From Pelagibacteraceae bacterium AG-325-E23 (lineage in GTDB: Bacteria > Pseudomonadota > Alphaproteobacteria > Pelagibacterales > Pelagibacteraceae): a stretch of DNA of 55,367 bases. Under the pieces are notes generated by a model. The model searched no databases and was not told where the DNA came from. It saw only the letters and a list, made by a program, of their open reading frames with translations. Positions 2,444 to 17,723 of the stretch are shown one piece after another; position 1 is the stretch's first letter; every line of letters begins with the position of its first letter. A program made the translations under genes and the position numbers. The stretch spans positions 1 through 55,367 of the forward strand of contig QBYG01000009.1 of assembly GCA_003282945.1 (NCBI GenBank). Direction: 5' to 3'.

Positions 2444-3770
2444 ATGTCATTACCGACAAAAGCTAAAGTAGTAATCGTTGGAGGAGGAATTCACGGTCTT
2501 AGTACTGCTTGGAAACTTTCCGAAACTTATAAAAATCCAGGTGATATTGTCGTTTTAGAAAAAAAAAGATACTGCAGCAGGAGCTAGTGGTATTGCGTGC
2601 GGAGTTGTAAGAAATAATTATTTTCAGCCTGCAATGAGAGAGTTAATGGCTCACTCAGTTTCAGTTTGGGAAAGTGATCCTAAGGCATTTAAATATAATG
2701 CAGTTGGTTATTTACAGATTTCACCAGAGGTAATGCATGCTGATGTTGCAACTATTTATGAACAACAAAAAGCAATTGGTTACGAATCTGAATTTATAGA
2801 AGGTGAAAAAGATTGCATGAAATATATGAAAGGTATGTTTGGAGACTGGCAAGCACAAAGCATAACTTCTGTTCTTCATGAAAAAAAAGGTGGATACGCA
2901 TTTAACAAAGATTCTATTAGAGCACTTGAAAATAAGTCTACCTCAAATGGTGTTGAGGTATTAAAAGGTGTAAAAGTTACAGGTTTTAAAAGAGGAAGTA
3001 ATAGTAAAGCTGTTACAGGAGTTGAAACAGACAAAGGTACAATAGAGTGCGAACAAGTTGTTGTTGGTGCAGGACCTTGGGCTAGAGATTTTTGGAATAT
3101 GTTAGAGCTTCCTAAAACTGCAAATATTAAAGATAAAGACGGCAAGATGCATGAAACTGATATGTGGAAATATTGGATGCTTCAAGAAGGTGTGCTTGGT
3201 GTAGAACCAGAGTTTTTAAAAATGGATAACGGTGAACAGCCACCTGTAATTCATGTAGACTCAACAGCCCCATTATACTCAGATAAAACTAAAAAATTAT
3301 TAACAGATAAAATTTGGGGTATATATTATAAACCAGATATTGAAGGACTTGGTGTCCAGGGTGGAACTTCACCTTACATAGTTGATAAACATTTTGATCA
3401 AGTAAACGTTGATCCGTATGGAATAGAGTCCCCTGAATATCAGACAACAGAAGCTTTTAATGATATGTGGTGTTCAGCGTTAGCTCATTGTCAAAAAAGA
3501 TTTGAGGGAAAATCAGATTTATATAGAAAAGGACCTTCCGGGGGACTTGGATGTATGACGCCAGACTCTTTTCCAATTTTTGATAGATTTTTAGAAAACG
3601 TTTACATGATAGCAGACTCTAACCATGGTTATAAAATGATTGGAGTTGGAGAGCTTGTTGCAAAAGAAATTCTTGGAACCGAAAGTGAATTATTAAAACC
3701 ATTTAGATTCAACCGTTACGAGAAAGGTGAATTACACCCAACATCTAATAGTCCATTTCCTTGGAGCTAA
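2444..3770 (+). pseudogene. FAD-dependent amine oxidoreductase (sarcosine/N-methylglutamate dehydrogenase family), frameshifted
   Basis: The gene begins at ATG 2444 with an N-terminal FAD-binding Rossmann motif (VVIVGGGIHGLSTAWKL). After the codons for VVLEKK the frame breaks in a run of nine A (2559-2567) and meets TAG. Deleting one A joins it cleanly to the frame ending at 3770 (KDTAAGASGIACGVV...), giving about 441 residues. The C-terminal part (GGLGCMTPDSFPIF, then DSNHGYKMIGVGE) matches the DAO/SoxB superfamily. Such enzymes oxidise N-methyl groups of sarcosine, dimethylglycine or N-methylglutamate. No SoxA/D/G-type (MgdBCD) partner genes are present. The middle (~residues 210-310) looks unlike classical SoxB/MgdA. 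A downstream restart at 2634 would lack the FAD motif. Sequencing error, slippage or true inactivation cannot be told apart here. Confidence 0.75.
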
Positions 3771-3837: not shown

Positions 3838-5307
3838 ATGACTGATCTAGAGAAACATGTTAATCAACCGGGTAGAGCTAAACTAGTTAAACAAGTTAGA
3901 GCTAAAATCAATGAACTAAAAATTGATTATATTTTTTTTCAATTCATTTCAGTAACAGGAAGAGTTGTTGGTAAAGGAATTCCTGCTGATCATTGGGAAA
4001 GAACATGCGAAAAAGGTTTTCAATTAGTTTATGGAGCAACTGCTAATTTATTCTTAGATCGTCATAATAATTATATAGGATATGGTCCTGAAGCTAAAGA
4101 ATTGGTTGGAATACCAGATCCTGAAACTTTTTGCCAACTTCCTTGGGATAAAAAAGTTGCGAGAGTTTTTGTAACTTGTTTTAGAAATAGAGAAGAAAGA
4201 GAAAATCCAGGCGGTCACTTAACATCAGATTGCAGAGGTAATTTAAGAATTATTGCTAAAGAATTTAAGAAAAAACATGGTTACCAACTAAGAGTTGGAA
4301 CTGAACCAGAAATGATGTGGTTGACTAGAAACGATGATGGAACTCCAACTGGTAAGGGTTTTTCTAAACCATATTGTTATCATATAGATCAATTCGAATC
4401 TTTAAGACCTGTATTTATGAGAGTAATGGAATACGCAAGAGCTATGGGATTTGACATGATTCAAGGTGACCATGAAGATGCCCCTGGACAACTAGAGTTA
4501 AACTGGATGTACGATGATGTTTTAAGAAATGCAGATAGATTATCTACTTACAGACAAATTTGCGCTCAAGTTGCAAGAGAATTTAATTTAATTGCATGTT
4601 TTATGACAAAACCTTTTATGGGAGTATCAGCTAGTGGTTGTCATACCAATATGTCTTTATGGACAGGTGGAAAAGATAAGATAAATAAATTGGGTCACAA
4701 ATCTTTACCAGGCATGGATGAAGTATTTACTTATGTAGAAGGTGGAACTAACACTTTTATGCCCGATACAAAAGATGTTCAGTTACCAGGTAAAGTTGGT
4801 TTAAAATCCATTGGTGGAGTTATGAAACATCTTGGTGCATTAACTGCAATTGGATCATCAACGGTTAACTCATATAGAAGATTATGGGATCAAGGTTTTT
4901 GGGCACCAGTTTATGCTGATTGGGGTTATCAAAATAGAACCTGCGGATTAAGAGTTTCAGCACCAGGAAGATTTGAATATCGATCGGTAGACTCTATGCA
5001 TAATCCATATTTAATGGGTGCAGGTTTATTAAAAGCTTTTGATGATGGAATATCTAATAAAATAGATCCAGGAAAACCCGAGTCTAGAAATATTTATGAA
5101 GCTCAAAAGGCTGGAAAAAATGTAAAAAAATTACCTTTAAGTCTTGGTGAGGCTTTAGATCGTTTAGCAGATGACAAGGTTATTCAATCCGCAATGCCAG
5201 ATGAAATGTATAAAATATTTCATTGGTATAAAAACGATGAGTGGGAAAGATTTTTAGGTGCAACAACTCAATGGGATCTAGATACTTATTTGGATTGCCT
5301 ACCATAA
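3838..5307 (+). CDS. glnT: Glutamine synthetase-like gamma-glutamyl ligase (GlnT/GSIII), module A
   Basis: This 489-residue protein starts at an ATG 6 nt behind a good AAGGGGG ribosome site. Glutamine-synthetase motifs run in order: a metal-binding EPE (VGTEPEMMW), DHEDAPGQLELNW, the ATP/ammonia-site region SASGCHTNMSLW, STVNSYRRLW followed by APVYADWGYQNRT, and RFEYR...HNPYL. It should ligate ammonia or an amine to the gamma-carboxyl of glutamate. Rhizobial glnT sits beside glxBCD in the same way. It differs from the second ligase (13831-15156): it is ~48 residues longer, with extra sequence after SLWTGG, and it has the canonical APVYADWGYQNRT loop instead of the extended loop. The amine substrate may therefore be different; ammonia or another primary amine is possible. 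Three glx genes follow closely. Confidence 0.78.
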   Translation: MTDLEKHVNQPGRAKLVKQVRAKINELKIDYIFFQFISVTGRVVGKGIPADHWERTCEKGFQLVYGATANLFLDRHNNYIGYGPEAKELVGIPDPETFCQLPWDKKVARVFVTCFRNREERENPGGHLTSDCRGNLRIIAKEFKKKHGYQLRVGTEPEMMWLTRNDDGTPTGKGFSKPYCYHIDQFESLRPVFMRVMEYARAMGFDMIQGDHEDAPGQLELNWMYDDVLRNADRLSTYRQICAQVAREFNLIACFMTKPFMGVSASGCHTNMSLWTGGKDKINKLGHKSLPGMDEVFTYVEGGTNTFMPDTKDVQLPGKVGLKSIGGVMKHLGALTAIGSSTVNSYRRLWDQGFWAPVYADWGYQNRTCGLRVSAPGRFEYRSVDSMHNPYLMGAGLLKAFDDGISNKIDPGKPESRNIYEAQKAGKNVKKLPLSLGEALDRLADDKVIQSAMPDEMYKIFHWYKNDEWERFLGATTQWDLDTYLDCLP

Positions 5308-5329: not shown

Positions 5330-6271
5330 ATGTGCGGAATAGCTGGTCTTATCCATAGGGGAAAATCCTCTAATGTAGGAAATGAATTACAAGCAATGCT
5401 TCAGGCCTTAAAGCATAGAGGTCCTGACTCAACAGGTTATGCTCTTTATGCAGATAACGATGGTCAAAACTTTATAATGAGATTTAAAGTTGGAGAAAAT
5501 GTCGGTGAAGGTAGTTCTTCTATAAATGAAGACGAGAGTGTTTATGACAAAAGAAAAGAGCTTGTTGATCAGATGTTAAAAAGTCTTGGTGCAAAAGTTT
5601 TAAAAGAAGAAAAATTAACTCCCTACTCTTATAGATACGAAATGCAATACGATGAGGATTTAATGGATTTTTCAAAGAAAATTGAGAGTATCGAAAGTGT
5701 TGAAATATTATCCATTGGAAAATCTCTTGAACTAATAAAAGATTTAGGAGACGCACAGGAGGTTTTAGATAGATATGATCTTGGCAAAGTGAGAGGAACT
5801 CACGCTATAGGTCATGCTAGAATGGCAACTGAGTCTGGTGTAGATATAAAATCTGCCCACCCCTTTTGGGGATATCCATTTAGCGATGTATCTGTTGTGC
5901 ATAATGGTCAATTAACTAATTATTGGAATAATAGAAGAATGCTTGAAAATAAAGGTATGAGATTCATGTCAGAGTGTGACTCTGAATTAATCGCAGTTTA
6001 TTTAGCAGAAAAAATGAGAAATGGAGCAACTCTAGAAGAAGGTATGAGGGATAGTTTATCAGGATTAGATGGCGTGTTTACTTATTTTGTTGCAACAAAA
6101 GATTCTTTAGGAATGGCAAAAGATACAATGGCAGCAAAACCACTGGTTTTATACGAGTCAGATGATTTGGTAGCCATGGGATCTGAAGAGATTGCAATAA
6201 GATCTATCTTGCCCCACGAAATTGACACTTATGATCCTTTTGATGGAGAGGTAAAAGTATGGCAAATATAA
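5330..6271 (+). CDS. glxB: Class II glutamine amidotransferase subunit GlxB (module A)
   Basis: 313 residues beginning MCGIAGL, so Cys2 becomes the N-terminal nucleophile of an Ntn-type glutaminase after Met removal. KHRGPDSTGYALY, GTHAIGHARMATES and VVHNGQLTNYWNNRR are the usual amidotransferase motifs of GltB/PurF. An insert at ~residues 50-145 separates the first strand from the GHARMATE motif. It would release ammonia (or an amine) from a gamma-glutamyl amide and pass it to the GlxD synthase. AAGGAG lies 6 nt before the ATG. The 3' end overlaps glxC by 13 bp, indicating translational coupling. Module B carries a paralogue. Confidence 0.82.
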   Translation: MCGIAGLIHRGKSSNVGNELQAMLQALKHRGPDSTGYALYADNDGQNFIMRFKVGENVGEGSSSINEDESVYDKRKELVDQMLKSLGAKVLKEEKLTPYSYRYEMQYDEDLMDFSKKIESIESVEILSIGKSLELIKDLGDAQEVLDRYDLGKVRGTHAIGHARMATESGVDIKSAHPFWGYPFSDVSVVHNGQLTNYWNNRRMLENKGMRFMSECDSELIAVYLAEKMRNGATLEEGMRDSLSGLDGVFTYFVATKDSLGMAKDTMAAKPLVLYESDDLVAMGSEEIAIRSILPHEIDTYDPFDGEVKVWQI

Positions 6272-7113
6272 AAACTAACGAGAATAAAACTAAAGCTCAA
6301 TCAATGGGACTTCATAGTGAAGTCTTAACAGGAAAAACACAACAAAAATTTTTCAATCCAGATGAAGCAGAAAACTTTTATTATTGGGGGACTTATGATG
6401 TAGATTTTAATAAAAGAATTGATCTTGATGTAAATGATCTAGATTGCAAAGAGGCAAACAAAAAAATTGATGAGCTTATGAGTCAAGGTTATGGAACAAT
6501 AGTTATAAAAAATCCGCAAGGAAAACATAGTTTAGGTGTTGGAGTATTAAATAAATTGAATTTAATATTTGAAGGAAGTTTGGGTTATTTTGGTGTCGGT
6601 TCTATTGATGGCCCAACAGTAAGAATTAATGGCAGAGTTGGATGGTCATGTGCAGAAAATATGATGGCAGGAAAAGTAGTAATAGAAAAAAATGCAGGAT
6701 CATGTTTTGGTGCAGCAGTTAGAGGTGGAGATTTAATATGTAAAGGAAGTGTTGGTGCTAGAACAGGAATTGATCAAAAAGGTGGAACAATTATTGTTGG
6801 GGGTGACGCTGGAGCATTTACTGGGTTTATGATGCAAAGAGGTAGAATAATAATTTTAGGTAATGTCGGTATAAACCTAGGAGACTCTATGTACGATGGA
6901 ACTATTTATGTGGGTGGAAAAATAGGATCATTTGGTAGTGATGCGATTGAGTCGCCTATGACAAAAAGTGATGTAGATTGGATTAAAAGAAAACTTAAAG
7001 TAGCAGAAATCGGTGAAAATTTTGATATTTCAAAAATGACTAAAGTAGTTGCAGGTAAAAAATTATGGAATTATGACGCTTTAGAACCAACTGAGAAAAA
7101 AGGAGCAATTTAA
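6259..7113 (+). CDS. glxC: GXGXG-domain glutamate synthase subunit GlxC (module A)
   Basis: 284 residues. The C-terminal two thirds is a repetitive right-handed beta-helix like the GXGXG domain at the end of glutamate synthase GltB: repeated G-V-G/G-x-x-G turns such as GVGSIDGPTVRING, AAVRGGDLICKGSVGARTG and DAGAFTGFMMQRGRIIILG. An N-terminal ~60-residue extension is absent from the module B copy. The domain is a structural scaffold in glutamate synthase and has no known catalytic residues. It would assemble with GlxB and GlxD. It overlaps glxB by 13 bp and shares one base with glxD (TAATG). Confidence 0.8.
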   Translation: MANIKTNENKTKAQSMGLHSEVLTGKTQQKFFNPDEAENFYYWGTYDVDFNKRIDLDVNDLDCKEANKKIDELMSQGYGTIVIKNPQGKHSLGVGVLNKLNLIFEGSLGYFGVGSIDGPTVRINGRVGWSCAENMMAGKVVIEKNAGSCFGAAVRGGDLICKGSVGARTGIDQKGGTIIVGGDAGAFTGFMMQRGRIIILGNVGINLGDSMYDGTIYVGGKIGSFGSDAIESPMTKSDVDWIKRKLKVAEIGENFDISKMTKVVAGKKLWNYDALEPTEKKGAI

Positions 7114-8507
7114 TGGCAAAGAAAAAAAACGGAAAATCAAATGGTCATTCCAATGGGAATGGTGGAAGTGAATTCTCAAAAAGAAATAAAAGTTTACTAG
7201 GTTATAACGCTATATTTACACCTGAAGTAATCGACGACATTCATATTAAGGCTCAGTTAGGAAGATACCGAATGAGAGGTATGGCTCTGATGAAAAAAAT
7301 TCCTACATTTGACGATTTAGTTTTTTTACCTGGTACTCTTACAAGATTTGTAATTGAAGGTTACAGAGAAAAATGTGAAACAAAAACTATCATCGGTCCA
7401 AGATGTGAAAATCCAGTAGAATTAGATATACCAGTTTATATTACAGGTATGAGTTTTGGGGCTTTATCTTATGAAGCAAAAACAGCACTTGCAAGAGGAG
7501 CTACTATGGCAGGTAGCGCAACATGTTCGGGTGAAGGTGGAATGATACCTGATGAAAGAAGATATTCAGAAAAATGGTACTATCAATGTATTCAATCAAG
7601 ATATGGATTTAATCCTCATCATGCACAGCTTGCTGATGGAATCGAAGTGTTCATTGGTCAAGGTCAAAAAGTTGGAATGGGTGGACACTTGATGGGTCAA
7701 AAAGTTACTGACCAAGTAGCAGAGATGAGATCATTACCAGCTGGTATTGATCAAAGATCTCCTGCGAGACATCCTGATTGGTTAGGACCAGATGATCTGG
7801 CTTTAAAAGTTCAAGAACTAAGAGAATTAACAAAAAATAAAGTTCCAATACAATTAAAACTTGGAGCAGCAAAAGTTTATGATGATGTTCGTATGGCAGC
7901 AAAATGTGATCCAGACTCTATTTATCTAGATGGTATGGAAGGCTCAACAGGTGCTGGTCCACACATCGCAGCAGCAAACACGGGTATACCTGGAATAGCT
8001 GCAATTCGAGAAGCAAGAAGAGCAATAGATGATGTTGGAAAAACTGGAAAAGTCACTCTTATTTATGCTGGTGGAGTTAGAGATGGAGCTGACATGGCTA
8101 AAGCACTTGCGCTTGGAGCAGATGCTATTGCTATAGGTACTGGAGCTATGATTGCACTAAACTGTAATAAAGAAATTCCAGAGTCTAATTTTGAAAAAGA
8201 AATGGGAGTGCCAGCAGGTCATTGTTATCACTGTCATACTGGTCGTTGCCCAGTTGGTGTTGCTACTCAAGATCCTAAGTTGAGAAAAAGACTAAATCCT
8301 GATGAGGCAGCTCTTAGAGTTTATAATTACTTACACACTATGACTTTAGAAGCACAATTATTAGCTAGAGCTTGTGGTAAAACAAATATCCATTCATTAG
8401 AGCCTGAAGATATGGCAGCTTTAACAATGGAAGCATCTGCTTTAGCGAAAGTACCACTTTCTGGAACAAATCATACGGTTGGAGTTGACGATTTTCATAA
8501 AATATAA
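7113..8507 (+). CDS. glxD: Glutamate synthase-like FMN/Fe-S catalytic subunit GlxD (module A)
   Basis: 464 residues of the glutamate synthase central/FMN domain (MgsC family). PVYITGMSFGALSYEAK, SGEGGMIPDERR, PIQLKLGAAKVYDD, DGMEGSTGAGPH, YAGGVRDGADMAKALALGADA and the cysteine cluster C371-x2-C374-x4-C379 before PVGVATQDP are visible. Those cysteines sit where glutamate synthase binds its [3Fe-4S] cluster, although the first spacing is shorter than the usual C-x5-C. The N-terminus is a Lys/Asn/Gly-rich tail (MAKKKNGKSNGHSNGNGG), odd for this family. It should join an amine to 2-oxoglutarate or oxidise the product with electron exchange. The module B copy lacks the cysteines. Confidence 0.82.
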   Translation: MAKKKNGKSNGHSNGNGGSEFSKRNKSLLGYNAIFTPEVIDDIHIKAQLGRYRMRGMALMKKIPTFDDLVFLPGTLTRFVIEGYREKCETKTIIGPRCENPVELDIPVYITGMSFGALSYEAKTALARGATMAGSATCSGEGGMIPDERRYSEKWYYQCIQSRYGFNPHHAQLADGIEVFIGQGQKVGMGGHLMGQKVTDQVAEMRSLPAGIDQRSPARHPDWLGPDDLALKVQELRELTKNKVPIQLKLGAAKVYDDVRMAAKCDPDSIYLDGMEGSTGAGPHIAAANTGIPGIAAIREARRAIDDVGKTGKVTLIYAGGVRDGADMAKALALGADAIAIGTGAMIALNCNKEIPESNFEKEMGVPAGHCYHCHTGRCPVGVATQDPKLRKRLNPDEAALRVYNYLHTMTLEAQLLARACGKTNIHSLEPEDMAALTMEASALAKVPLSGTNHTVGVDDFHKI

Positions 8508-8509
8508 TT

Positions 8510-8917
8510 ATGGCAAAGAAAAAAAGTAAAAAATCGAGCAAAAAAACAGTTAAAGGTCAGTTAGGTAAAAAGAAGGAGACTGCTCGAGAAAAGATGATAG
8601 GTCAAACTATTGGTTATAGATATGATGTAAATTTATTACCAGACTATTCAAGGATTACTCCATTCTTAAAAAAATATATAGAAGCAATGGGTTGGGATGA
8701 TTTAAATTGGTTGGAAGATGTTCACATGGGGTATGAAGAAGATAGACCAGCAGTATTTGATAGAAACGCTAATGGTTGGGTCACAATTCCAAAAAAAATT
8801 AAATTACCAAATAACCAACAAGATAGAGACATGATTGCAAGAGAACTATTGGTCAAATTTCAGATGTCTCCAAATCATCCACTTGTAGATCTCAAAAAAG
8901 CATACAGAAAATTTTAG
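8510..8917 (+). CDS. Unknown 135-residue basic protein tied to GlxD
   Basis: I do not recognise this family. The ATG lies two bases after the glxD stop, so it is in the same operon. The first ~30 residues are extremely lysine-rich (MAKKKSKKSSKKTVKG...), like the tail of the GlxD just upstream. Then comes a compact part with VNLLPDYSRITPFLKKYIEA, GWDDLNWLEDVHMGYEEDR, a predicted strand NGWVTIPKKI, and a C-terminal helix ending LKKAYRKF. There is no signal peptide, membrane segment or cysteine motif. Module B has no counterpart. Position and shared tail suggest an accessory subunit of the module A enzyme, but this is inference. Confidence 0.6.
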   Translation: MAKKKSKKSSKKTVKGQLGKKKETAREKMIGQTIGYRYDVNLLPDYSRITPFLKKYIEAMGWDDLNWLEDVHMGYEEDRPAVFDRNANGWVTIPKKIKLPNNQQDRDMIARELLVKFQMSPNHPLVDLKKAYRKF

Positions 8918-9048: not shown

Positions 9049-10449
9049 ATGACTAGTCAAATTGATGCGTTGCAAACCATATTTACAGAATTTTACTATT
9101 GGATAACAGTAGTACTTATGTTTCTTATCCATGTAGGATTTTGTATGTATGAAGTTGGAGCATCGCGTTACAAACACCATCAACATACATTAATGAAAAA
9201 TACAATGCTGATACCTTTGGTAACAGTAACTTGGTTTTTATTTGGTTGGTGGATATATTGGGCTTTTCCAACAGGACCTGGATTAGCTCCATCAATAATG
9301 ACAGAAAGTACTGGGCTTGTTCTCGGAGGTGGATTTGGTGCAAATGATTTAGCTAATCCCACAAACGAGTTTATGGCTATTACGCTTAACGATCACATCA
9401 TGGGAGTATTTTGGGCAGCGTTCCTTTTATTCTCCTGGACAGCTGCTTCAATAGTATCAGGTGCAGTTATTGAAAGAATAACAACTTTTGCATTTGGAAT
9501 TCTTGCCATTGCAATTGGATCTGTGTTTTGGAGTATAGATGCTGCATGGGGATGGCACTTTGATGGATGGATGTTAAAAATACTTGGATATCATGATGCA
9601 TATGCATCAGGGGTAATTCACGCTGTAGCAGGAGGATTTGCTTTAGGTGTGCTTGCTGTATTAGGTCCAAGAATTGGAAAATTTTCATCAAGTGGTGAAC
9701 CTAGAAACATTGGACCAAGAAATCCTTGGTTAGTAACTGTTGGATTATTCTTAATTTATACAGGTTTTTGGGGATTCTACGCGGCTTGTAATGTTCCAAT
9801 TTATGACTTAGGGCCTGAATATGGAATGGAAGGTGTAACTTTCTTTACTGCTACTAACATATACTACACTCCAACGACATTAAGTGGAATAACTATGAAC
9901 TTTTTGATGTCTTTATCAGGAGGATTGTTAGCTGGTTACGTAATATCAAAAGGTGATCCTTTCTGGACATACTCAAGCGGACTAGCTGGAATAATATGTG
10001 CTTCAGCAGGAAACGATCTTTATCATCCAATTCAATCATTAATTATTGGTATGATTGGGGTAGTTATAGCTTACAAACTACATTATTGGGTTGAACGTAA
10101 GTTCAAAATTGATGATGCAGTTGGAGCTGTTGCAGTTCATGGTTATGCAGGCTTTGCTGGTCTTGTAATTTGTGGATTTGTCCTAAATGGATATCCTTCA
10201 TCAGGTTACAGTGTTGGTGCAATGTGGGATGGATCTACATATGCTGCTATTAATCCATTAGGAATGTTTATTGGTGCATTAATAATGTTTTTTGTGCTTG
10301 GAATGATTCCTGGTTGGATTATTGCTAAAGTTCTTAATGGTATGGGCAAACTACGTATACCGAGAGAAGTTGAGTTAGCAGGATTGGACTATCAAATAAT
10401 GGAGGAGGCAAAAGAAGATGAAAAAACTGTTGCTTCTTCAAGTAGTTAA
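9049..10449 (+). CDS. amt: Ammonium transporter (Amt family)
   Basis: A 466-residue inner-membrane protein with about 11 hydrophobic segments. The pore-lining twin histidines are recognisable in GVIHAVAGGFALGVLAV and VAVHGYAGFAGLVICG. It carries ammonium into the cell, here between two gamma-glutamyl ligase modules that can use ammonia or amines. Some family members also carry methylammonium, which would fit the context. The C-terminal cytoplasmic tail (MEEAKEDEKTVASSSS) is acidic then serine-rich. There is no glnK/PII gene after it; two membrane microproteins occupy that place. SAR11 is reported to respond to nitrogen limitation without PII, which agrees. Confidence 0.93.
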   Translation: MTSQIDALQTIFTEFYYWITVVLMFLIHVGFCMYEVGASRYKHHQHTLMKNTMLIPLVTVTWFLFGWWIYWAFPTGPGLAPSIMTESTGLVLGGGFGANDLANPTNEFMAITLNDHIMGVFWAAFLLFSWTAASIVSGAVIERITTFAFGILAIAIGSVFWSIDAAWGWHFDGWMLKILGYHDAYASGVIHAVAGGFALGVLAVLGPRIGKFSSSGEPRNIGPRNPWLVTVGLFLIYTGFWGFYAACNVPIYDLGPEYGMEGVTFFTATNIYYTPTTLSGITMNFLMSLSGGLLAGYVISKGDPFWTYSSGLAGIICASAGNDLYHPIQSLIIGMIGVVIAYKLHYWVERKFKIDDAVGAVAVHGYAGFAGLVICGFVLNGYPSSGYSVGAMWDGSTYAAINPLGMFIGALIMFFVLGMIPGWIIAKVLNGMGKLRIPREVELAGLDYQIMEEAKEDEKTVASSSS

Positions 10450-10910: not shown

Positions 10911-11789
10911 ATGTGTGGCATCGTTGGAATTTATCTAAAATCTAAAAAATTTGAAAAATCATTGGGGGGAATGCTTTCTAAAATGTTAGTCAGTATGGAG
11001 TCTAGGGGTCCTGATAGTGCAGGTTTTGCAATTTATAACAGTGATAAAAATAAAATTTATAAATATTCTATTTGTTTAAATGAAATGAGTTTAGAAAAAT
11101 TCAAAAAAGAAATTAAAAAAAAATTGAAATTTACAAGTATAGAAAAGAATTCTGACCACATAATTTTAAAATCTATTGAAAAACCTAACAAAATTCTCCC
11201 TATTTTAGAGAGTTTTGTGAAAATATCACTAGTTGGTTACGGGAAATCAATTGAAATTTTTAAACAAGTTGGAAGTCCAAGTAATGTTGTAAAAAAGTTT
11301 AATCTAGATAATTTTTCAGGAACTCATGCGATTGGCCATACGCGAATGGCAACAGAAAGTGCAATTACTACAAATGGATCTCACCCCTACTCTACTGGAG
11401 AAGATGAATGTTTGGTTCATAACGGATCGCTATCTAATCACAATAACTTAAGAAGAATATTGAAAAAAAATGGTTCTAAGTTTAATTCTGAAAATGACAC
11501 TGAAGTTGCAGCTGGATATATCTCCGATAGTCTTAAAAATAGAAACCTAAAACAAACTTTAAAAAAAGGTTTAAGCGAACTAGATGGGTTCTACACTTTT
11601 ATTGCAGGAACTCACAGTGGTTTCGCAGTTCTTCGTGATGAGATAGCTTGTAAACCTGCAGTAATAGCTGAAACAAAAGATTATGTTGCAATTTGTTCTG
11701 AGTTTCAAGCAATGGCACATATGCCTAATGTTAACAATGCAAAAATTTTTGAACCTAATCCAGGTATAGTTTATTCTTGGGGAAAATAA
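10911..11789 (+). CDS. mgsA: N-methylglutamate synthase subunit A (class II glutamine amidotransferase)
   Basis: 292 residues from ATG 10911. An in-frame ATG at 10860 would add 17 residues, but the Ntn nucleophile must be Cys2 (MCGIVGIY), so 10911 is chosen. Motifs MESRGPDSAGFAIY, GTHAIGHTRMATES, LVHNGSLSNHNNLRR and NDTEVAA match GltB/PurF-type glutaminase domains. In methylotrophs MgsA deaminates gamma-glutamylmethylamide, passing methylamine to MgsC. The order mgsA-mgsB-mgsC-gmaS here matches N-methylglutamate pathway clusters. It is a divergent paralogue of the gene at 5330-6271. The stop overlaps mgsB by one base. Confidence 0.8.
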   Translation: MCGIVGIYLKSKKFEKSLGGMLSKMLVSMESRGPDSAGFAIYNSDKNKIYKYSICLNEMSLEKFKKEIKKKLKFTSIEKNSDHIILKSIEKPNKILPILESFVKISLVGYGKSIEIFKQVGSPSNVVKKFNLDNFSGTHAIGHTRMATESAITTNGSHPYSTGEDECLVHNGSLSNHNNLRRILKKNGSKFNSENDTEVAAGYISDSLKNRNLKQTLKKGLSELDGFYTFIAGTHSGFAVLRDEIACKPAVIAETKDYVAICSEFQAMAHMPNVNNAKIFEPNPGIVYSWGK

Positions 11790-12469
11790 TGAATCTTGAT
11801 TTAAAAAAATTGAAACTAAGATCGGTAAATGAAAAGCTACAAAGTATTGATAGAAAAACAAAAAGTAGAAAATTTACTATATCAAATCCTGAAGGTAATC
11901 ATGCTATATGTGCAGGTCTTACAGAAAATATTAAAGTAACTATAAAAGGTCATGTAGGTTATTATTGTGCTGGTATGAACCAAAATGCAAATATTATAGT
12001 TGATGGAAATGTAGGCACAGGTGTAGCAGAAAATATGATGTCTGGAAAAGTTCATGTTAAAGGAAATGCATCACAATCTGCAGGGGCAACTGCACATGGT
12101 GGAACATTAATTGTTGATGGCGATACTAGTTCTAGATGTGGAATTTCAATGAAAGGTATTGACATAATAGTTAAAGGTTCTGTTGGTCATATGTCAGCCT
12201 TTATGGCTCAATCTGGAAATTTAGTTGTTTTTGGTAATGCTGGTGAAGCCTTAGGAGATAGTTTGTATGAAACAAATATATATGTAAAAGGAAAAGTAAA
12301 GTCTTTAGGAGCAGATTGTGAAGAAAAAAAAATGGATAAAAAACATAAATCAAAATTAAAAGAGCTGTTGAAAAAAGCTGGATCAAATATTAAACCCGAT
12401 CAATTTAAAAGATACGGTTCTGCTAGAAAACTATATAATTTTAATATTGATAATGTATCAAACTATTAA
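11789..12469 (+). CDS. mgsB: N-methylglutamate synthase subunit B (GXGXG domain)
   Basis: 226 residues from ATG 11789 (TAATG overlap with mgsA); a TTG 12 bases upstream is less likely. It is almost entirely a GXGXG beta-helix as in the glutamate synthase C-terminus: GHVGYYCAGMNQNANIIVDG, GTGVAENMMSGKVHVKG, SAGATAHGGTLIVDG, GHMSAFMAQSGNLVVFG. It lacks the N-terminal extension of the module A GlxC, and has a Lys-rich C-terminal region (KKMDKKHKSKLKELLKK). Its role is structural within the MgsABC complex. The next gene starts two bases after the stop. Confidence 0.8.
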   Translation: MNLDLKKLKLRSVNEKLQSIDRKTKSRKFTISNPEGNHAICAGLTENIKVTIKGHVGYYCAGMNQNANIIVDGNVGTGVAENMMSGKVHVKGNASQSAGATAHGGTLIVDGDTSSRCGISMKGIDIIVKGSVGHMSAFMAQSGNLVVFGNAGEALGDSLYETNIYVKGKVKSLGADCEEKKMDKKHKSKLKELLKKAGSNIKPDQFKRYGSARKLYNFNIDNVSNY

Positions 12470-12471
12470 TT

Positions 12472-13791
12472 ATGAAAAATAAAACTATACCTCGTCAATC
12501 CTGGACCTTTGATGAATACACTAACTCTGAAATAAGAAGAGCCGCAGAGACTGGAATTTATGATATTAGGGGTGGTGGTTCTAAAAGAAAGCTTCCACAT
12601 TTTGATGATTTATTATTTTTAGGTGCTTCAATGTCTAGATATCCTTTGGAAGGATATAGAGAAAAATGTACTACAAATATAACTTTAGGCACAAAATATG
12701 CAAAAAAACCATTAGAGCTTGATATTCCAATTACGATTGCAGGTATGAGTTTTGGAGCTTTGTCAGGTCCAGCGAAAGAGGCATTAGGAAGAGGAGCAAG
12801 TGCAGCTGGAACATCTACCACAACAGGTGATGGAGGAATGACACCAGAAGAAAGAGGTCAATCGAAAAATTTAGTTTATCAACTTTTGCCCTCAAGATAT
12901 GGGATGAACCCAAATGATTTAAGGAAGGCAGATGCAATTGAAGTAGTAATTGGACAAGGCGCAAAACCTGGTGGTGGAGGAATGTTGCTTGGACAAAAAA
13001 TAGATGATCGTGTTGCAGAAATGAGAACTTTACCAAAAGGTATTGATCAAAGGTCTGCATGTCGACACCCTGATTGGACCGGTCCTGATGATTTAAAAAT
13101 AAAAATTTTGGAATTAAGAGAAATTACTAAATGGAAAGTTCCTATTTTTATTAAAATTGCTGGAGCAAGACCATATTATGATACAGCATTAGCTGTAAAA
13201 GCTGGAGCAGATGTTGTTGTCTTGGATGGTATGCAAGGTGGTACAGCAGCAACACAAGAAGTATTCATTGAAAATGTAGGTCAACCGACTTTAGCTTGCA
13301 TAAGACCTGCAGTAGATGCTTTGCAAGATTTAAATTCTCATAGAGAAGTTCAGCTTGTAATTTCAGGTGGAATTAGAAATGGTGCAGATGTAGCTAAAGC
13401 TCTCGCGTTAGGAGCTGATGCAGTATCAATTGGGAGTGCAGCCATGATTGCAATTGGTGATAATGACCCGAAATGGGAAAAAGAATATGAAAAACTTGGA
13501 AGTAAAGCTGGAGCGTACGACGACTGGCATGAAGGAAATGATCCCGCAGGAATATCAACTCAGAAACCAGAGTTAATGAAAAGATTAGATCCAAAAAAAG
13601 CAGGTAGAAAATTATCAAATTATTTAAAGGTGATGTCTTTAGAAGCGCAAACTATCGCAAGAGCGTGTGGAAAAAATAGTCTTCATAATTTAGAACCAGA
13701 GGATTTATGTGCATTAACTGTTGAAGCTGCAGCAATGGCAAGAGTTCCTTTGGCAGGAACTAGCTGGATACCGGGTATAAAAAAGAGATAG
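12472..13791 (+). CDS. mgsC: N-methylglutamate synthase subunit C (glutamate synthase FMN domain) lacking Fe-S cysteines
   Basis: 439 residues with the glutamate synthase catalytic barrel: PITIAGMSFGALSGPAKEAL, TGDGGMTPEERG, PIFIKIAGARPYYD, LDGMQGGTAATQE, VISGGIRNGADVAKALALGA and LEPEDLCALTVEAAAMARVP. It should join methylamine released by MgsA to 2-oxoglutarate, forming N-methylglutamate with FMN. Ungapped alignment to GlxD (7113-8507) places Tyr349, Trp352 and Asp357 where that protein has C371, C374 and C379, so the iron-sulfur cluster should be absent. This fits a flavin-only, redox-balanced methylamine transfer. No frameshift or deletion accompanies the change. Confidence 0.82.
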   Translation: MKNKTIPRQSWTFDEYTNSEIRRAAETGIYDIRGGGSKRKLPHFDDLLFLGASMSRYPLEGYREKCTTNITLGTKYAKKPLELDIPITIAGMSFGALSGPAKEALGRGASAAGTSTTTGDGGMTPEERGQSKNLVYQLLPSRYGMNPNDLRKADAIEVVIGQGAKPGGGGMLLGQKIDDRVAEMRTLPKGIDQRSACRHPDWTGPDDLKIKILELREITKWKVPIFIKIAGARPYYDTALAVKAGADVVVLDGMQGGTAATQEVFIENVGQPTLACIRPAVDALQDLNSHREVQLVISGGIRNGADVAKALALGADAVSIGSAAMIAIGDNDPKWEKEYEKLGSKAGAYDDWHEGNDPAGISTQKPELMKRLDPKKAGRKLSNYLKVMSLEAQTIARACGKNSLHNLEPEDLCALTVEAAAMARVPLAGTSWIPGIKKR

Positions 13792-13830: not shown

Positions 13831-15156
13831 ATGCCCCAAAATTTGTCTAATATTGCTAAATCAAAAAAAATTAAATATTTTTTAATAAGTTTCGTTGATT
13901 TGTTTGGTGTATTAAGATCTAAATTAGTACCCGCACAAGCAATAAAGGAGATGCAAAAAAATGGTGCAGGATTTGCTGGATTTGCAGCTTGGCTTGATAT
14001 GTCACCAGCAGACTCGGATATGTTCGCTGTACCAGATCCAAATAGTTTAATTCAATTACCTTGGAATAAAGAAGTAGGTTGGCTTGCTTCAGACCTGTGG
14101 ATGAATGGTAAACCTGTTGAGGCATCACCAAGAGTAATGTTAAAAAAGCAAATAAAATTACTATCAAATGAAGGTTACACCATGAAATCTGGTGTTGAGT
14201 GTGAATATTTTCTTATATCACCTGATGGTAGTTCTATTGCAGACACTAGGGATACTCAATCTAAACCTTGTTATGATCAATCAGCTTTGATGAGGCAATA
14301 TGATTTAATAAAAGAGATATGTGATTGTATGATTACAATGGGATGGAACCCATATCAAAATGATCATGAAGATGCTAATGGCCAGTTTGAAATGAATTGG
14401 GACTACACTGACTGCCTAACTACAGCAGATAGACATACATTTTTTAAATTTATGGTTAAGTCCATAGCAGAAAAGCATGGGTTAAGAGCAACATTTATGC
14501 CAAAACCATTTGAACAACTGACGGGTAATGGATGTCATGCGCATATTTCCCTATGGGATAAGAAAAAAAATAAATTTTTAGATAAAAACGATAAACTTGG
14601 ACTTAGTAAATTAGCATATAATTTTTTAGGTGGAGTAATTAAGAATGCAGGTTCATTATCAGCATTTTTTAATCCAACATTAAATAGTTATAGAAGAATA
14701 AATGCACCACCGACAAAATCTGGTGCAACATGGTCCCCAAGTAGTATTTCTTACACAGGAAATAATCGAACACATATGATTAGAGTTCCAGATCCAGGAA
14801 GATTTGAACTTAGATTAATGGACGGTTCAGCAAATCCATATTTACTACAAGCAGGAGTTTTAGCAGCAGGTATAAATGGCATTAGAAAAAGAGTTAATCC
14901 TGGAAAACCATTATTCTGTAATATGTATACTGATCACGAAAAATATCCTAACCTACCAAAATTACCAAATACATTAGAAGATTCCTTAGAAATGTTAAAT
15001 TTTAATACAGTTATGAAAAATGCTTTTGGAAAAAATGTTTTAAATAGTTACATCAAATTAAAAAAATCTGAAATAGAAAGTTTTAAGTTAAAAGAAAAAT
15101 TTGATAAATTGAAACCTATTACAAAGTGGGAAAGATCTAATACTTTGGATTGTTAA
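13831..15156 (+). CDS. gmaS: Gamma-glutamylmethylamide synthetase
   Basis: 441 residues, the usual GmaS length, of the glutamine synthetase family. Visible motifs are GVECEYF (metal site), NDHEDANGQFEMNWDY, TGNGCHAHISLWD, NPTLNSYRRINAPP followed by TWSPSSISYTGNNRTHMIR, and PGRFELRLMDGSANPYLLQAG. The extended loop after NSYRR separates it from the module A ligase. GmaS uses ATP to join monomethylamine to glutamate. Adjacency to mgsABC (39 bp upstream) makes the gamma-glutamylmethylamide/N-methylglutamate route likely. Confusion with glnA-type nitrogen assimilation is possible, but context and length favour GmaS. Confidence 0.82.
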   Translation: MPQNLSNIAKSKKIKYFLISFVDLFGVLRSKLVPAQAIKEMQKNGAGFAGFAAWLDMSPADSDMFAVPDPNSLIQLPWNKEVGWLASDLWMNGKPVEASPRVMLKKQIKLLSNEGYTMKSGVECEYFLISPDGSSIADTRDTQSKPCYDQSALMRQYDLIKEICDCMITMGWNPYQNDHEDANGQFEMNWDYTDCLTTADRHTFFKFMVKSIAEKHGLRATFMPKPFEQLTGNGCHAHISLWDKKKNKFLDKNDKLGLSKLAYNFLGGVIKNAGSLSAFFNPTLNSYRRINAPPTKSGATWSPSSISYTGNNRTHMIRVPDPGRFELRLMDGSANPYLLQAGVLAAGINGIRKRVNPGKPLFCNMYTDHEKYPNLPKLPNTLEDSLEMLNFNTVMKNAFGKNVLNSYIKLKKSEIESFKLKEKFDKLKPITKWERSNTLDC

Positions 15157-15159
15157 AAT

Positions 15160-16305
15160 ATGTCTATTAATTATAGTCATATTAATAAATTTTCATCATT
15201 TACAAAAAATAAAAATTATTCATTCAGTAGAGAAGAAATTTTAAGCGTTTTAAATAAAAAAACTATTGATAAGGCATTTAATACTATATCTCGTTGGGAA
15301 AATTATGAACCCACTCCCCTACTCAAATTAAATAAACTTTCAAAAGACCTTAATCTTAAAAATATCTTTTACAAAGATGAGTCTAAAAGGTTTGGACTAA
15401 AATCTTTTAAAGCACTTGGAGGTGCTTATGCGGTAGCGAAGGTTTCAGCTGGAAGAAAGAATGTAGTTGTTGCAACAGCAACAGCAGGAAATCATGGAAA
15501 ATCAGTTGCTTGGGGTGCAAAAAGGCTAGGAATTGCATGTAAAATTTTTATAAGTGAATTTGTAAGTGAAACAAGAGCTAATGAGATGCGAAAACTAGGA
15601 GCTGAAGTGACAAAAGTAAAAGGCAATTACGAAAATTCTTTAAATGAATGCATAAAGCAATCTAAGGAAAATGGTTGGGAAATTGTACAAGATGTTGCCT
15701 GGGAGGATTATCAAAAAGTTCCAAAACTAACCATGGCTGGATATTCAGTGATGATAGCAGAAATCTCAAAACAAACTGATCATTATATAACACATATATT
15801 TCTTCAGGCAGGTGTAGGAGGTATGGCCTCTGGTGTAATAGCAGGAGTTGCCAGATATTTTAAAAGAATTCCAAAAATTATTGTTGTTGAGCCAAAAAAT
15901 GCAGACTGTGTATTAAAGAGTATTGATGCAGGTAAACTTACTAGAGTTGAAATAGAAAAAGAAAGCATTATGGGAGGAATGTCATGTGGGGATGTATCAT
16001 TAGTCCCATGGCAAATTCTAAAAAACTCAGTAAATAATTGTTTAAGTATTCCTGATGACGACATACCATTATCAGTAGCGATGTTAGCTAAGGGATACTT
16101 TGGTGAGGATAACATTGTTGCAGGAGAATGTTCAGCACCTGCTCTAATAAGTATAAATGTTAGTTGTAATAACGAACAAATTAAAAAGGATCTTGAATTA
16201 GATATGAATTCGAATGTTTTATTAATTGGATGCGAAGGTGATACAGATATAAAACTTTATAACGAACTTCTCTCTAAAGGATCAGAACAGTTGTCAAATG
16301 GGTAA
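15160..16305 (+). CDS. dpaL: Diaminopropionate ammonia-lyase-like PLP enzyme
   Basis: 381 residues, starting 3 bp after gmaS. It is a fold-type II PLP enzyme: SRWENYEPTPLLKLNKLSKD, KDESKRFGLKSFKALGGAYA (Schiff-base Lys in KSFKALGG), ATAGNHGKSVAWGAKRLG and QAGVGGMASGVIAGVARYF (phosphate-binding glycines). These closely fit diaminopropionate ammonia-lyase (YgeX/DpaL), which converts 2,3-diaminopropionate to pyruvate and two ammonia. A threonine/serine dehydratase-like or ectoine-pathway EutB-like activity is an alternative. Co-transcription with gmaS suggests amino-nitrogen salvage. It overlaps the photolyase gene by 8 bp. Confidence 0.75.
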   Translation: MSINYSHINKFSSFTKNKNYSFSREEILSVLNKKTIDKAFNTISRWENYEPTPLLKLNKLSKDLNLKNIFYKDESKRFGLKSFKALGGAYAVAKVSAGRKNVVVATATAGNHGKSVAWGAKRLGIACKIFISEFVSETRANEMRKLGAEVTKVKGNYENSLNECIKQSKENGWEIVQDVAWEDYQKVPKLTMAGYSVMIAEISKQTDHYITHIFLQAGVGGMASGVIAGVARYFKRIPKIIVVEPKNADCVLKSIDAGKLTRVEIEKESIMGGMSCGDVSLVPWQILKNSVNNCLSIPDDDIPLSVAMLAKGYFGEDNIVAGECSAPALISINVSCNNEQIKKDLELDMNSNVLLIGCEGDTDIKLYNELLSKGSEQLSNG

Positions 16306-17723
16306 TACAGCACTCGTTTGGATAAGAGATGATTTTCGAATACAAAATAATGATGCGCTGACTTATGCTTCAAACAAGCATGATATAGTTACGGCAGTAT
16401 TTATTTTTAATAGTAATATTTTTGATCACAAAAGAGAAGCTCAAAAGTGGTGGGTAAGTAAATCCTTAGAAAATTTTAAATCAGATTTAAAAAAATTAAA
16501 TATTGGATTGGAAATAATTAAGGACGATGAAATAAATTTTTTTTCTAAAATAAAATCTAATAGTAAAATATCTGTTTATTGGAATAAAGTTTATGAACCT
16601 ACAGAATTAGAAAAAGATAAAAAAATTGGGACTAATTTTTCAAAAAAAAATATTGATTTTAAATTTTTTAAAGGGAACGTTCTTAATGAATATAATAAAA
16701 TTACAAAAAATGATGGCACACCTTTTAAAGTCTACAGTCCTTTCTGGAGAAATGCAGAGCAATTTTATTTAGAAAGACTGCCTGATAAAATAAGCAAAGT
16801 TAAAAAGTGTAAAAAGATAAACACATTGTTTAAAAACCAAATAAAATCTGAGGATATTTTACCTAGGTCTGATTGGTATAAAAAATTTGAAAAGTATTGG
16901 GTACCTTCTGAGCAAAAAGCTCATGAAAATTTAGATAATTTTGTTAACAAAAGCATACTTAATTATGGTGTTGATCGTGACTTTCCATCAATTAAAGGAA
17001 CGTCATTACTTTCTCCATATATTAGAAATGGACAAATTAATGTTGGAGACATTTGGGAAAAGTGTAAAAAAACTAAAATCAAATAATGTAAGTGTAAAAA
17101 AATATACTAATGAAATTGGTTGGAGAGAGTTTTCGCACAGTCTCATAAATTACTTTCCACAAATGCTAAAGGGAAACTTAAGAAAAGAATTTGATAAGTT
17201 TCCATGGTTAAATAATTCTAAATTTTTAAATGCATGGAAAAAAGGAATGACAGGTTATCCAATTGTTGACGCTGGAATGAGAGAATTGTACGAAACAGGC
17301 TGGATGCATAATAGAATTAGAATGGTTGTTGGATCTTTTCTAGTGAAGCATTTAAGAATTAATTGGAAAGAGGGAGAAAAATATTTCAGAAATTGTCTAC
17401 TTGATTTCAATGAAGCAAATAATGTTGCACAATGGCAATGGGTAGCTGGATGTGGTGCAGATGCAGCGCCATATTTTAGAATTTTCAACCCTATTTTACA
17501 AGGTGAAAAATTTGATAAACAGGGAGAGTATGTAAAAAAATGGGTTCCTGAATTATCAAAAGTTCCTCCAAAATTTATTCACAAACCATGGGAAATGGAA
17601 AAAAAATATCAAGAAGCTATCAATACTATCATAGGTGCTAATTATCCGATGCCAATTGTTATTCATGAAAAAGCAAGGGCTGATGCTTTAAGTGCTTTTC
17701 AATCAATTAAGAAAAAAAATTAG
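16298..17723 (+). pseudogene. phrB: Deoxyribodipyrimidine photolyase, frameshifted
   Basis: The N-terminal part (LVWIRDDFRIQNNDALTYAS; antenna-binding domain) ends in a stop at 17084-17086, while the C-terminal FAD-binding part continues in another frame: GWREFSHSLINYFPQ, GMTGYPIVDAGMRELYETGW, NRIRMVVGSFLVKHL, NNVAQWQWVAGCGADAAPYF. Removing one A from the run of seven at 17066-17072 fuses them smoothly (WEKCKKLKSNNVSVKKY), giving 474 residues, the normal size of CPD photolyases. The intact enzyme repairs UV-induced pyrimidine dimers with blue light, important for surface-ocean cells. One indel in a homopolymer suggests a read error, but true decay is possible. The stop overlaps the opposing yjbQ stop. 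Confidence 0.85.

Follow-up and report, generated by a model that had tools for sequence, protein, structure and literature searches.

The N-methylglutamate synthase (NMGS) of methylotrophs, e.g. Methylobacterium and Aminobacter, is the complex MgsABC (EC 2.1.1.21), with gmaS or glnT adjacent to its three genes; in Aminobacter aminovorans the arrangement is mgsABC-glnT-soxBDAG, with an FMN-domain subunit that carries the motif described below as Fe-S-free. A production study (PMC6237917) calls the redox cofactor of NMGS unknown, and reports for Pseudomonas putida with M. extorquens DM4 genes that mgsABC alone gives product, 2.5 times less than with gmaS. Among SAR11 bacteria, methylamine oxidation is reported for Pelagibacter ubique HTCC1062 (PMC3160333). 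Another close relative is glutamate synthase (GltB / Fd-GltS), which has the FMN-barrel fold (predicted in MgsC, Z 31.0 to 1ea0_A) and the QGAKPG motif in common with MgsC, but differs from it in its C-x5-C-x4-C cluster and in having E/Q where MgsC has D120/M171; all its domains lie in one chain of ~1500 residues, whereas the MgsABC studied here is encoded by separate genes.

Two glutamate synthase-like modules in a SAR11 contig

The window, i.e. the whole stretch of DNA analysed, is 55,367 nt long and is one contig (QBYG01000009.1) of the 1.16 Mb assembly of Pelagibacteraceae bacterium AG-325-E23. It carries two glutamate-synthase-like modules in tandem (Table 1). Module A consists of a glutamine-synthetase-like gene, glxB, glxC, glxD, a gene for a 135-aa protein and an Amt-type transporter gene; module B follows with mgsA, mgsB, mgsC and gmaS, and then a diaminopropionate ammonia-lyase-like gene starting at 15160. 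Amidotransferase, GXGXG and FMN-domain subunits are thus encoded in module B by three separate genes in that order, and gmaS (TIGR03105) adjoins mgsC; in nearly all loci read, gmaS lies in the same stretch as mgsC. A further frame of the glutamate synthase family, 1511 aa long, is found elsewhere in the same genome.

Table 1. Features of the two modules (window coordinates)
Feature	Position	Strand	Basis
Module A glutamine-synthetase-like protein	3838..5307	+	Pfam catalytic domain present; under the curated cut-off of all 5 listed NCBIfam families
glxB, module A amidotransferase subunit	5330..6271	+	Pfam
glxC, module A GXGXG subunit	6259..7113	+	Pfam
glxD, module A FMN-domain paralogue, four cysteines	7113..8507	+	Pfam, alignment to MgsC
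GlxD C351, C371, C374, C379, predicted Fe-S ligands	8163..8249	+	Alignment
Module A 135-aa protein	8510..8917	+	Matches neither Pfam nor NCBIfam at E 0.001
Amt-type transporter, placed between modules A and B	9049..10449	+	Pfam Ammonium_transp, 172.7 bits
mgsA, class II glutamine-amidotransferase-like subunit, N-terminus MCGIVG	10914..11789	+	Pfam GATase_6/7, sequence
mgsB, GXGXG subunit	11789..12469	+	Pfam GXGXG
mgsC, catalytic NMGS subunit with FMN domain, of the Fe-S-free class	12472..13791	+	Pfam Glu_synthase, 50% identity to GlxD, in Fe-S-free MgsC clade
MgsC D330 codon, place of first GltS cluster cysteine (= GlxD C351)	13459..13461	+	Alignment
MgsC Y349-D350-D351-W352 to D357, conserved, replaces C-x2-C-x4-C of Fe-S site	13516..13542	+	Alignment
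gmaS, gamma-glutamylmethylamide synthetase (type III glutamine-synthetase family)	13831..15156	+	NCBIfam TIGR03105, 624 bits vs cut-off 469.6

Module B resembles the methylotroph systems in its subunit division and gene order, in the adjacent gmaS/glnT and in the Fe-S-free motif. It differs from them in being preceded by another GltS-like module and an Amt-type transporter gene, and in having the N-methylglutamate dehydrogenase-like genes on another contig (C12), where soxB, soxD and soxA show 54%, 35% and 40% identity, respectively, to the A. aminovorans set. With that set as query, tblastn gave no match to soxG in the genome; one hit of a Fer2_4 search of the genome lies in the soxA-like frame. 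Module A GlxBCD has the same three-subunit layout as MgsABC, with an FMN subunit 50% identical, but differs in its four cysteines, in E and H at the places of D120 and M171, in the extra 135-aa gene and in a glutamine-synthetase-like partner that scores under the curated NCBIfam cut-offs.

The double cluster is also present at four named Pelagibacteraceae (SAR11) loci (L086, L141, L146 and L150). A GlxD-like gene, with 50-53% identity to MgsC, occurs in 68 of 147 SAR11-order genomes, as compared to 22 of 147 with MgsC. Outside SAR11 it was found in G154 (locus L071) and in a Chromatiales symbiont from a bryozoan (L100); in the latter, module A, an Amt-like gene (40%) and module B follow one another as they do in SAR11, which suggests that the double cluster has been transferred between lineages. 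Elsewhere in the window, genes for a fusion of DUF1989 and GcvT (76-1995) and for an oxidase of the DAO type (2634-3770) lie upstream of module A, and a DNA photolyase gene (16298-17723) lies in two overlapping frames that separate its N-terminal and FAD domains; the photolyase of a relative (L066) is a single frame of ~473 aa, and the split in the window is a frameshift or an assembly error.

Cysteine positions and the two classes of MgsC

GlxD (7113-8504) and MgsC (12472-13788) align with 50% identity over 436 positions; two gaps are needed, where a first-pass annotation of this DNA had described an ungapped comparison. That annotation had placed Y349, W352 and D357 of MgsC opposite C371, C374 and C379 of GlxD amid conserved flanks, and both observations hold, the pattern G-x5-H-x-G-x2-P-x-G-x2-TQ being present in both proteins. 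Its statement that MgsC has lost all three Fe-S cysteines is right as to the loss, but a fourth cysteine was overlooked, GlxD C351 (in ALNC), which stands opposite MgsC D330. The ligand trio needs the same correction: in phmmer alignments, C1102, C1108 and C1113 of Azospirillum glutamate synthase, which we take to be its cluster ligands, stand opposite GlxD C351, C374 and C379, such that two members of the proposed trio match GltS ligands and the third ligand is C351, not C371. All 17 outgroup rows (FMN-domain and GltS-type) read C-CC, with cysteines in the three ligand columns and no residue opposite C371; the latter is therefore an additional cysteine, belonging to the GlxD/MgsC clan. GlxD, which holds every glutamate synthase cluster cysteine plus C371, likely has a four-cysteine Fe-S site. 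The window's MgsC has D330, Y349, W352 and D357 instead, without the GltS pattern C-x5-C-x4-C, and the alignment shows the absence of its cluster ligands.

We collected 180 sequences with at least 55% identity to the window's MgsC, 159 of them distinct. Two classes emerge: 37 sequences carry the complete set of four cysteines, and in 122 cysteines 2 and 3 are missing. Among the 122 Fe-S-free sequences the first cysteine is present in 10, the last in 6 and both in 2, with neither middle one in any, and the loop that takes their place is well conserved (Y349 in 120, D350 in 120, D351 in 118, an aromatic residue at 352 in all 122, and D357 in 116); the full motif YDD[W/Y/F]-x4-DPAGI is read in 109. 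To judge from these counts, the loop is a conserved feature rather than decay. A local sequence error or gene decay behind the missing cysteines, for which we see practically no chance, is refuted by the conservation of this motif, and the mgsC frame is free of stops. The change is also wider than the first-pass annotation allowed in describing ligand loss without any other damage: 17 positions set the two classes apart, 13 of them in residues 330-392, in a comparison that includes one duplicate four-cysteine MgsC.

The best 80 named loci comprise 28 four-cysteine and 52 Fe-S-free loci, a proportion that is no census. The matches listed place four-cysteine loci in, e.g., Methyloversatilis, Burkholderia, Zoogloea, Hydrogenophaga, one cyanobacterium and several alphaproteobacterial MAGs, and Fe-S-free loci in, e.g., Roseovarius, Ancylobacter, Nocardia and Mycolicibacterium. 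To these come seven loci read on plasmids, five Fe-S-free (Aminobacter, Acinetobacter, a mycobacterium, Methylobacterium and Pseudomonas) and two four-cysteine (Burkholderia stagnalis and Kovacikia). The window's MgsC is a typical representative of the Fe-S-free class, with 83% identity to the Aminobacter gene and 83-84% to Sinorhizobium plasmid genes, and in the tree it groups with MgsC of known methylamine users; four-cysteine MgsC sequences are 63-75% identical to it. The four-cysteine NMGS of Methyloversatilis, Burkholderia, Zoogloea and some SAR11 (type II, below) has the same subunits, similar neighbour genes and the same active-site residues, and unlike the window's MgsC it has a predicted Fe-S site. 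In six gammaproteobacterial Fe-S-free sequences (L101, L138, L077, L079, L102 and L104), cluster cysteines are left as remnants, either the first alone or the first together with the last.

MgsC trees were built without the motif columns. In a tree of 120 rows (including the duplicate), the Fe-S-free class needs two changes, of which starred branches force one; the sequence that does not conform is the long-branched L161, which falls outside the Fe-S-free clade. In a 50-row tree without L161, the class forms one side of a branch (support 93, unstarred). The Fe-S-free class is thus probably old and monophyletic, and since all 17 outgroup rows carry the cluster cysteines, its state is a derived one, a loss.

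The first-pass annotation had proposed that modules A and B run chemically different reactions according to whether the cluster is present. Within the window the cysteines do distribute in this way, being present in GlxD and absent from MgsC, but four-cysteine MgsC is found in mgsABC-gmaS loci of many bacteria, including Methyloversatilis, Burkholderia and marine Alphaproteobacteria, and at this very module B position in SAR11 genomes with both modules (L066-L068 and L086), so we now consider this proposal very improbable; the one pathway seems to operate both with a cluster and without it. A better divider is the active site. Four MgsC positions (120, 165, 171 and 185) correspond by alignment to glutamate synthase active-site residues, K165 and R185 presumably at the 2-oxoglutarate site. 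Both MgsC classes read alike there (D120, K165 and R185 each in 159/159, M171 in 158/159 with one V), and GlxD reads E, K, H and R in 20 of 20 rows (11 distinct; from a comparison that includes the duplicate MgsC), differing from both classes at two of the four positions (E for D120, H for M171). We therefore place the division between modules A and B at the substrate site, with the Fe-S site varying within B; the modules may well perform different chemistry, for a reason other than the cluster. At the four positions GlxD is like its FMN-domain relatives.

A predicted structure of the window's MgsC (pLDDT 77.6) has glutamate synthase 1ea0_A as best match (Z 31.0, rmsd 3.5, 370 aligned), and so does that of a SAR11 type II protein (L086; pLDDT 79.5, Z 26.5, rmsd 3.6, 362 aligned), for which the scores of some glycolate and lactate oxidases differ from that of 1ea0_A by no more than 1. 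In the former model, pLDDT falls below 50 in loop 162-173, which holds K165 and M171.

Probable exchange of mgsC within the SAR11 operon

Among the 147 SAR11-order genomes, MgsC at 73% identity or more occurs in 22, in 18 at 89-100% (type I) and in four at 73%. These four have all four cysteines (type II) and occupy the X position of the same mgsA-mgsB-X-gmaS arrangement, which in three cases is preceded by module A on the same contig. A genus search with type II MgsC as query (399 genomes, threshold E 1e-180) gave matches in 64 genomes, one per genome: seven complete type II matches (94-95% identity), all with four cysteines; one partial match (G706) that ends before the motif; and 56 with 73-77% identity to type II, of which 23 were read and all 23 are Fe-S-free. 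Three type II genomes (G011, G015 and G026) are single contigs with stated completeness of 99-100%. The first-pass annotation had named cysteines in close relatives as a sign of local sequence error; such cysteines were found, yet they point to subunit exchange instead.

All 11 SAR11 rows form one clade in the trees of MgsA, MgsB and GmaS (100, 100 and 99, respectively, all starred), and SAR11 MgsC is split in two, with type I among alphaproteobacterial Fe-S-free sequences and type II outside the Fe-S-free class. Because three proteins each give one clade while MgsC is divided, mgsC was probably replaced inside the SAR11 operon. A single SAR11 MgsC clade is rejected for the whole gene (AU test, p 0.005); each part of mgsC alone gives the same placement, but with AU p values of only 0.062 and 0.079. 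Segment identities are in line with this placement (Table 2). For MgsC, type I-II identity lies below that between type I sequences of different SAR11 families in every segment; for MgsB it is just under the identity to the other family, so that mgsB, too, may have been altered when mgsC was; for GmaS it is close to the identity within type I, and for MgsA there is no clear step between the types.

Table 2. Identity by segment between SAR11 types
Protein	Type I-II	Type I-I	To other SAR11 family
GmaS	0.89, 0.85, 0.90, 0.84, 0.88, 0.60	0.92, 0.85, 0.89, 0.83, 0.90, 0.61	
MgsC	0.60-0.89	0.91-0.97	0.82-0.97
MgsB	0.64, 0.83, 0.64		0.65, 0.86, 0.69

Alternatively, the four-cysteine MgsC of SAR11 could be the resident gene after accelerated change or after conversion, e.g. 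by glxD, which lies ~5 kb away in the same gene cluster and has the cysteine motif in common. Residues 301-390 of type II are indeed slightly nearer to GlxD (56-61%) than to type I (47-58%), but they are nearer still to alphaproteobacterial four-cysteine MgsC (65-78%), and over all segments type II is only 36-64% identical to GlxD. Since, moreover, both gene parts put type II outside the Fe-S-free clade, in agreement with the whole-gene AU test, we reject conversion by GlxD and judge a resident origin of type II improbable.

Replacement of mgsC, then, is the reading that we retain, and its direction can be suggested: both of the SAR11 families that were read contain type I, in keeping with its being the older state in SAR11 and with a later arrival of type II. 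Such an exchange has probably occurred more than once, as the Fe-S state needs five changes on the joined MgsA+MgsB tree, at least four of them forced (we do not lean on the AU value of that tree, ~1e-48, which comes from a quick search). A second candidate is locus L078, where MgsA, MgsB and GmaS go with four-cysteine lineages and MgsC falls among the alphaproteobacterial Fe-S-free sequences. In the open-access literature on N-methylglutamate synthase or synthetase and Fe-S, flavin, ferredoxin or glutamate synthase, as far as its text was available, we found no description of two MgsC classes or of mgsC replacement in an operon.

Electron supply and consequences for methylamine use

With every GltS ligand absent and the predicted FMN-barrel fold and the QGAKPG motif kept, the flavin-only enzyme proposed by the first-pass annotation is the natural reading of the window's MgsC. 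On balance we consider it probable that this protein is an FMN-only NMGS subunit of the old Fe-S-free class, probably catalysing a redox-neutral amine exchange, and that the two classes share one locus in SAR11, most likely through replacement of mgsC within the operon. From the protein families and the operon, GmaS would make gamma-glutamylmethylamide, MgsA would free methylamine from it, and MgsC would turn the freed methylamine into N-methylglutamate at FMN. The redox-neutral step would have FMN oxidise glutamate to the imine, in which ammonia is replaced by methylamine before the reduced flavin gives the hydride back; this chemistry seems most likely because there is no cluster to bring electrons in. 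The four-cysteine class would keep an entry for outside electrons. Pollock and Hersh reportedly held that N-methylglutamate synthetase used FMN in an oxidative step.

The main competitor is that Fe-S-free NMGS is still reductive, with NAD(P)H or a flavodoxin reducing FMN directly and methylamine from gamma-glutamylmethylamide being added to 2-oxoglutarate. Published work counts in its favour and against a redox-neutral step: PMC6237917 prefers a reduction that starts from gamma-glutamylmethylamide and 2-oxoglutarate, and a review (PMC8292978), citing Kamini et al. 2018a, a work on Pseudomonas C5pp, names 2-oxoglutarate and NAD(P)H. The MgsC of two Pseudomonas plasmids match the Fe-S-free L083 at 93-95% identity, with the motif read in one of them (L224), and the Methylobacterium MgsC read (L223, from a strain other than DM4) is Fe-S-free. 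The retention of K165 and R185, at the 2-oxoglutarate-site positions, also speaks for it. Against it, the active site has changed from E to D and from Q to M, no pyridine-nucleotide domain is among the Pfam matches of MgsA, MgsB and MgsC (E 0.001), and an enzyme in need of outside electrons would hardly be expected to lose the known route by which they enter. We therefore regard the reductive alternative as rather unlikely and prefer the redox-neutral exchange.

A linked electron donor was sought by clustering 1355 ORFs around 99 loci (34 four-cysteine and 65 Fe-S-free) and comparing the families present in at least five loci; none was enriched at four-cysteine loci. The sole p value under 0.05 (0.019) belongs to the mgsC/glxD cluster itself, present in fewer four-cysteine loci, which we put down to ORF picking. 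According to PMC5023235, ferredoxin and ferredoxin reductase are among the methylamine-responding genes of Methyloversatilis FAM5, and the table there gives ferredoxin-NADP reductase as 1.68-fold with q 0.69; we treat this as a lead only, having read the four-cysteine state in another Methyloversatilis (L157). In Candidatus Mycobacterium methanotrophicum (L222, 8308-9498), a gene annotated as FAD-binding oxidoreductase directly follows an Fe-S-free mgsC. The amidotransferase subunit begins with MCG, as in class II amidotransferases, in 91 of 148 MgsA rows (59/106 from Fe-S-free loci and 32/42 from four-cysteine loci) and with VCG in five more; the remaining rows begin inside the gene, at a stretch end or through the script's choice of start.

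Tentatively, we propose that NMGS may handle electrons in two interchangeable ways. The first, in which an Fe-S site receives electrons from outside, would leave the nitrogen entirely in amino acids; the second, iron-free and redox-neutral, would release ammonia. The switch would be made by replacing mgsC alone, as SAR11 would have done at this locus. Two natural classes with the same active-site residues at the positions examined, at one SAR11 locus, make the redox cofactor of NMGS directly testable, and a cofactor-bearing subunit replaced in a working operon offers a clean case for how complexes change cofactors. If the proposal is true, the mgsC swap in SAR11 would alter the iron cost of the pathway and the fate of methylamine nitrogen; a difference in mechanism would change ammonium release from methylamine in the sea and what the pathway costs in iron-poor water.
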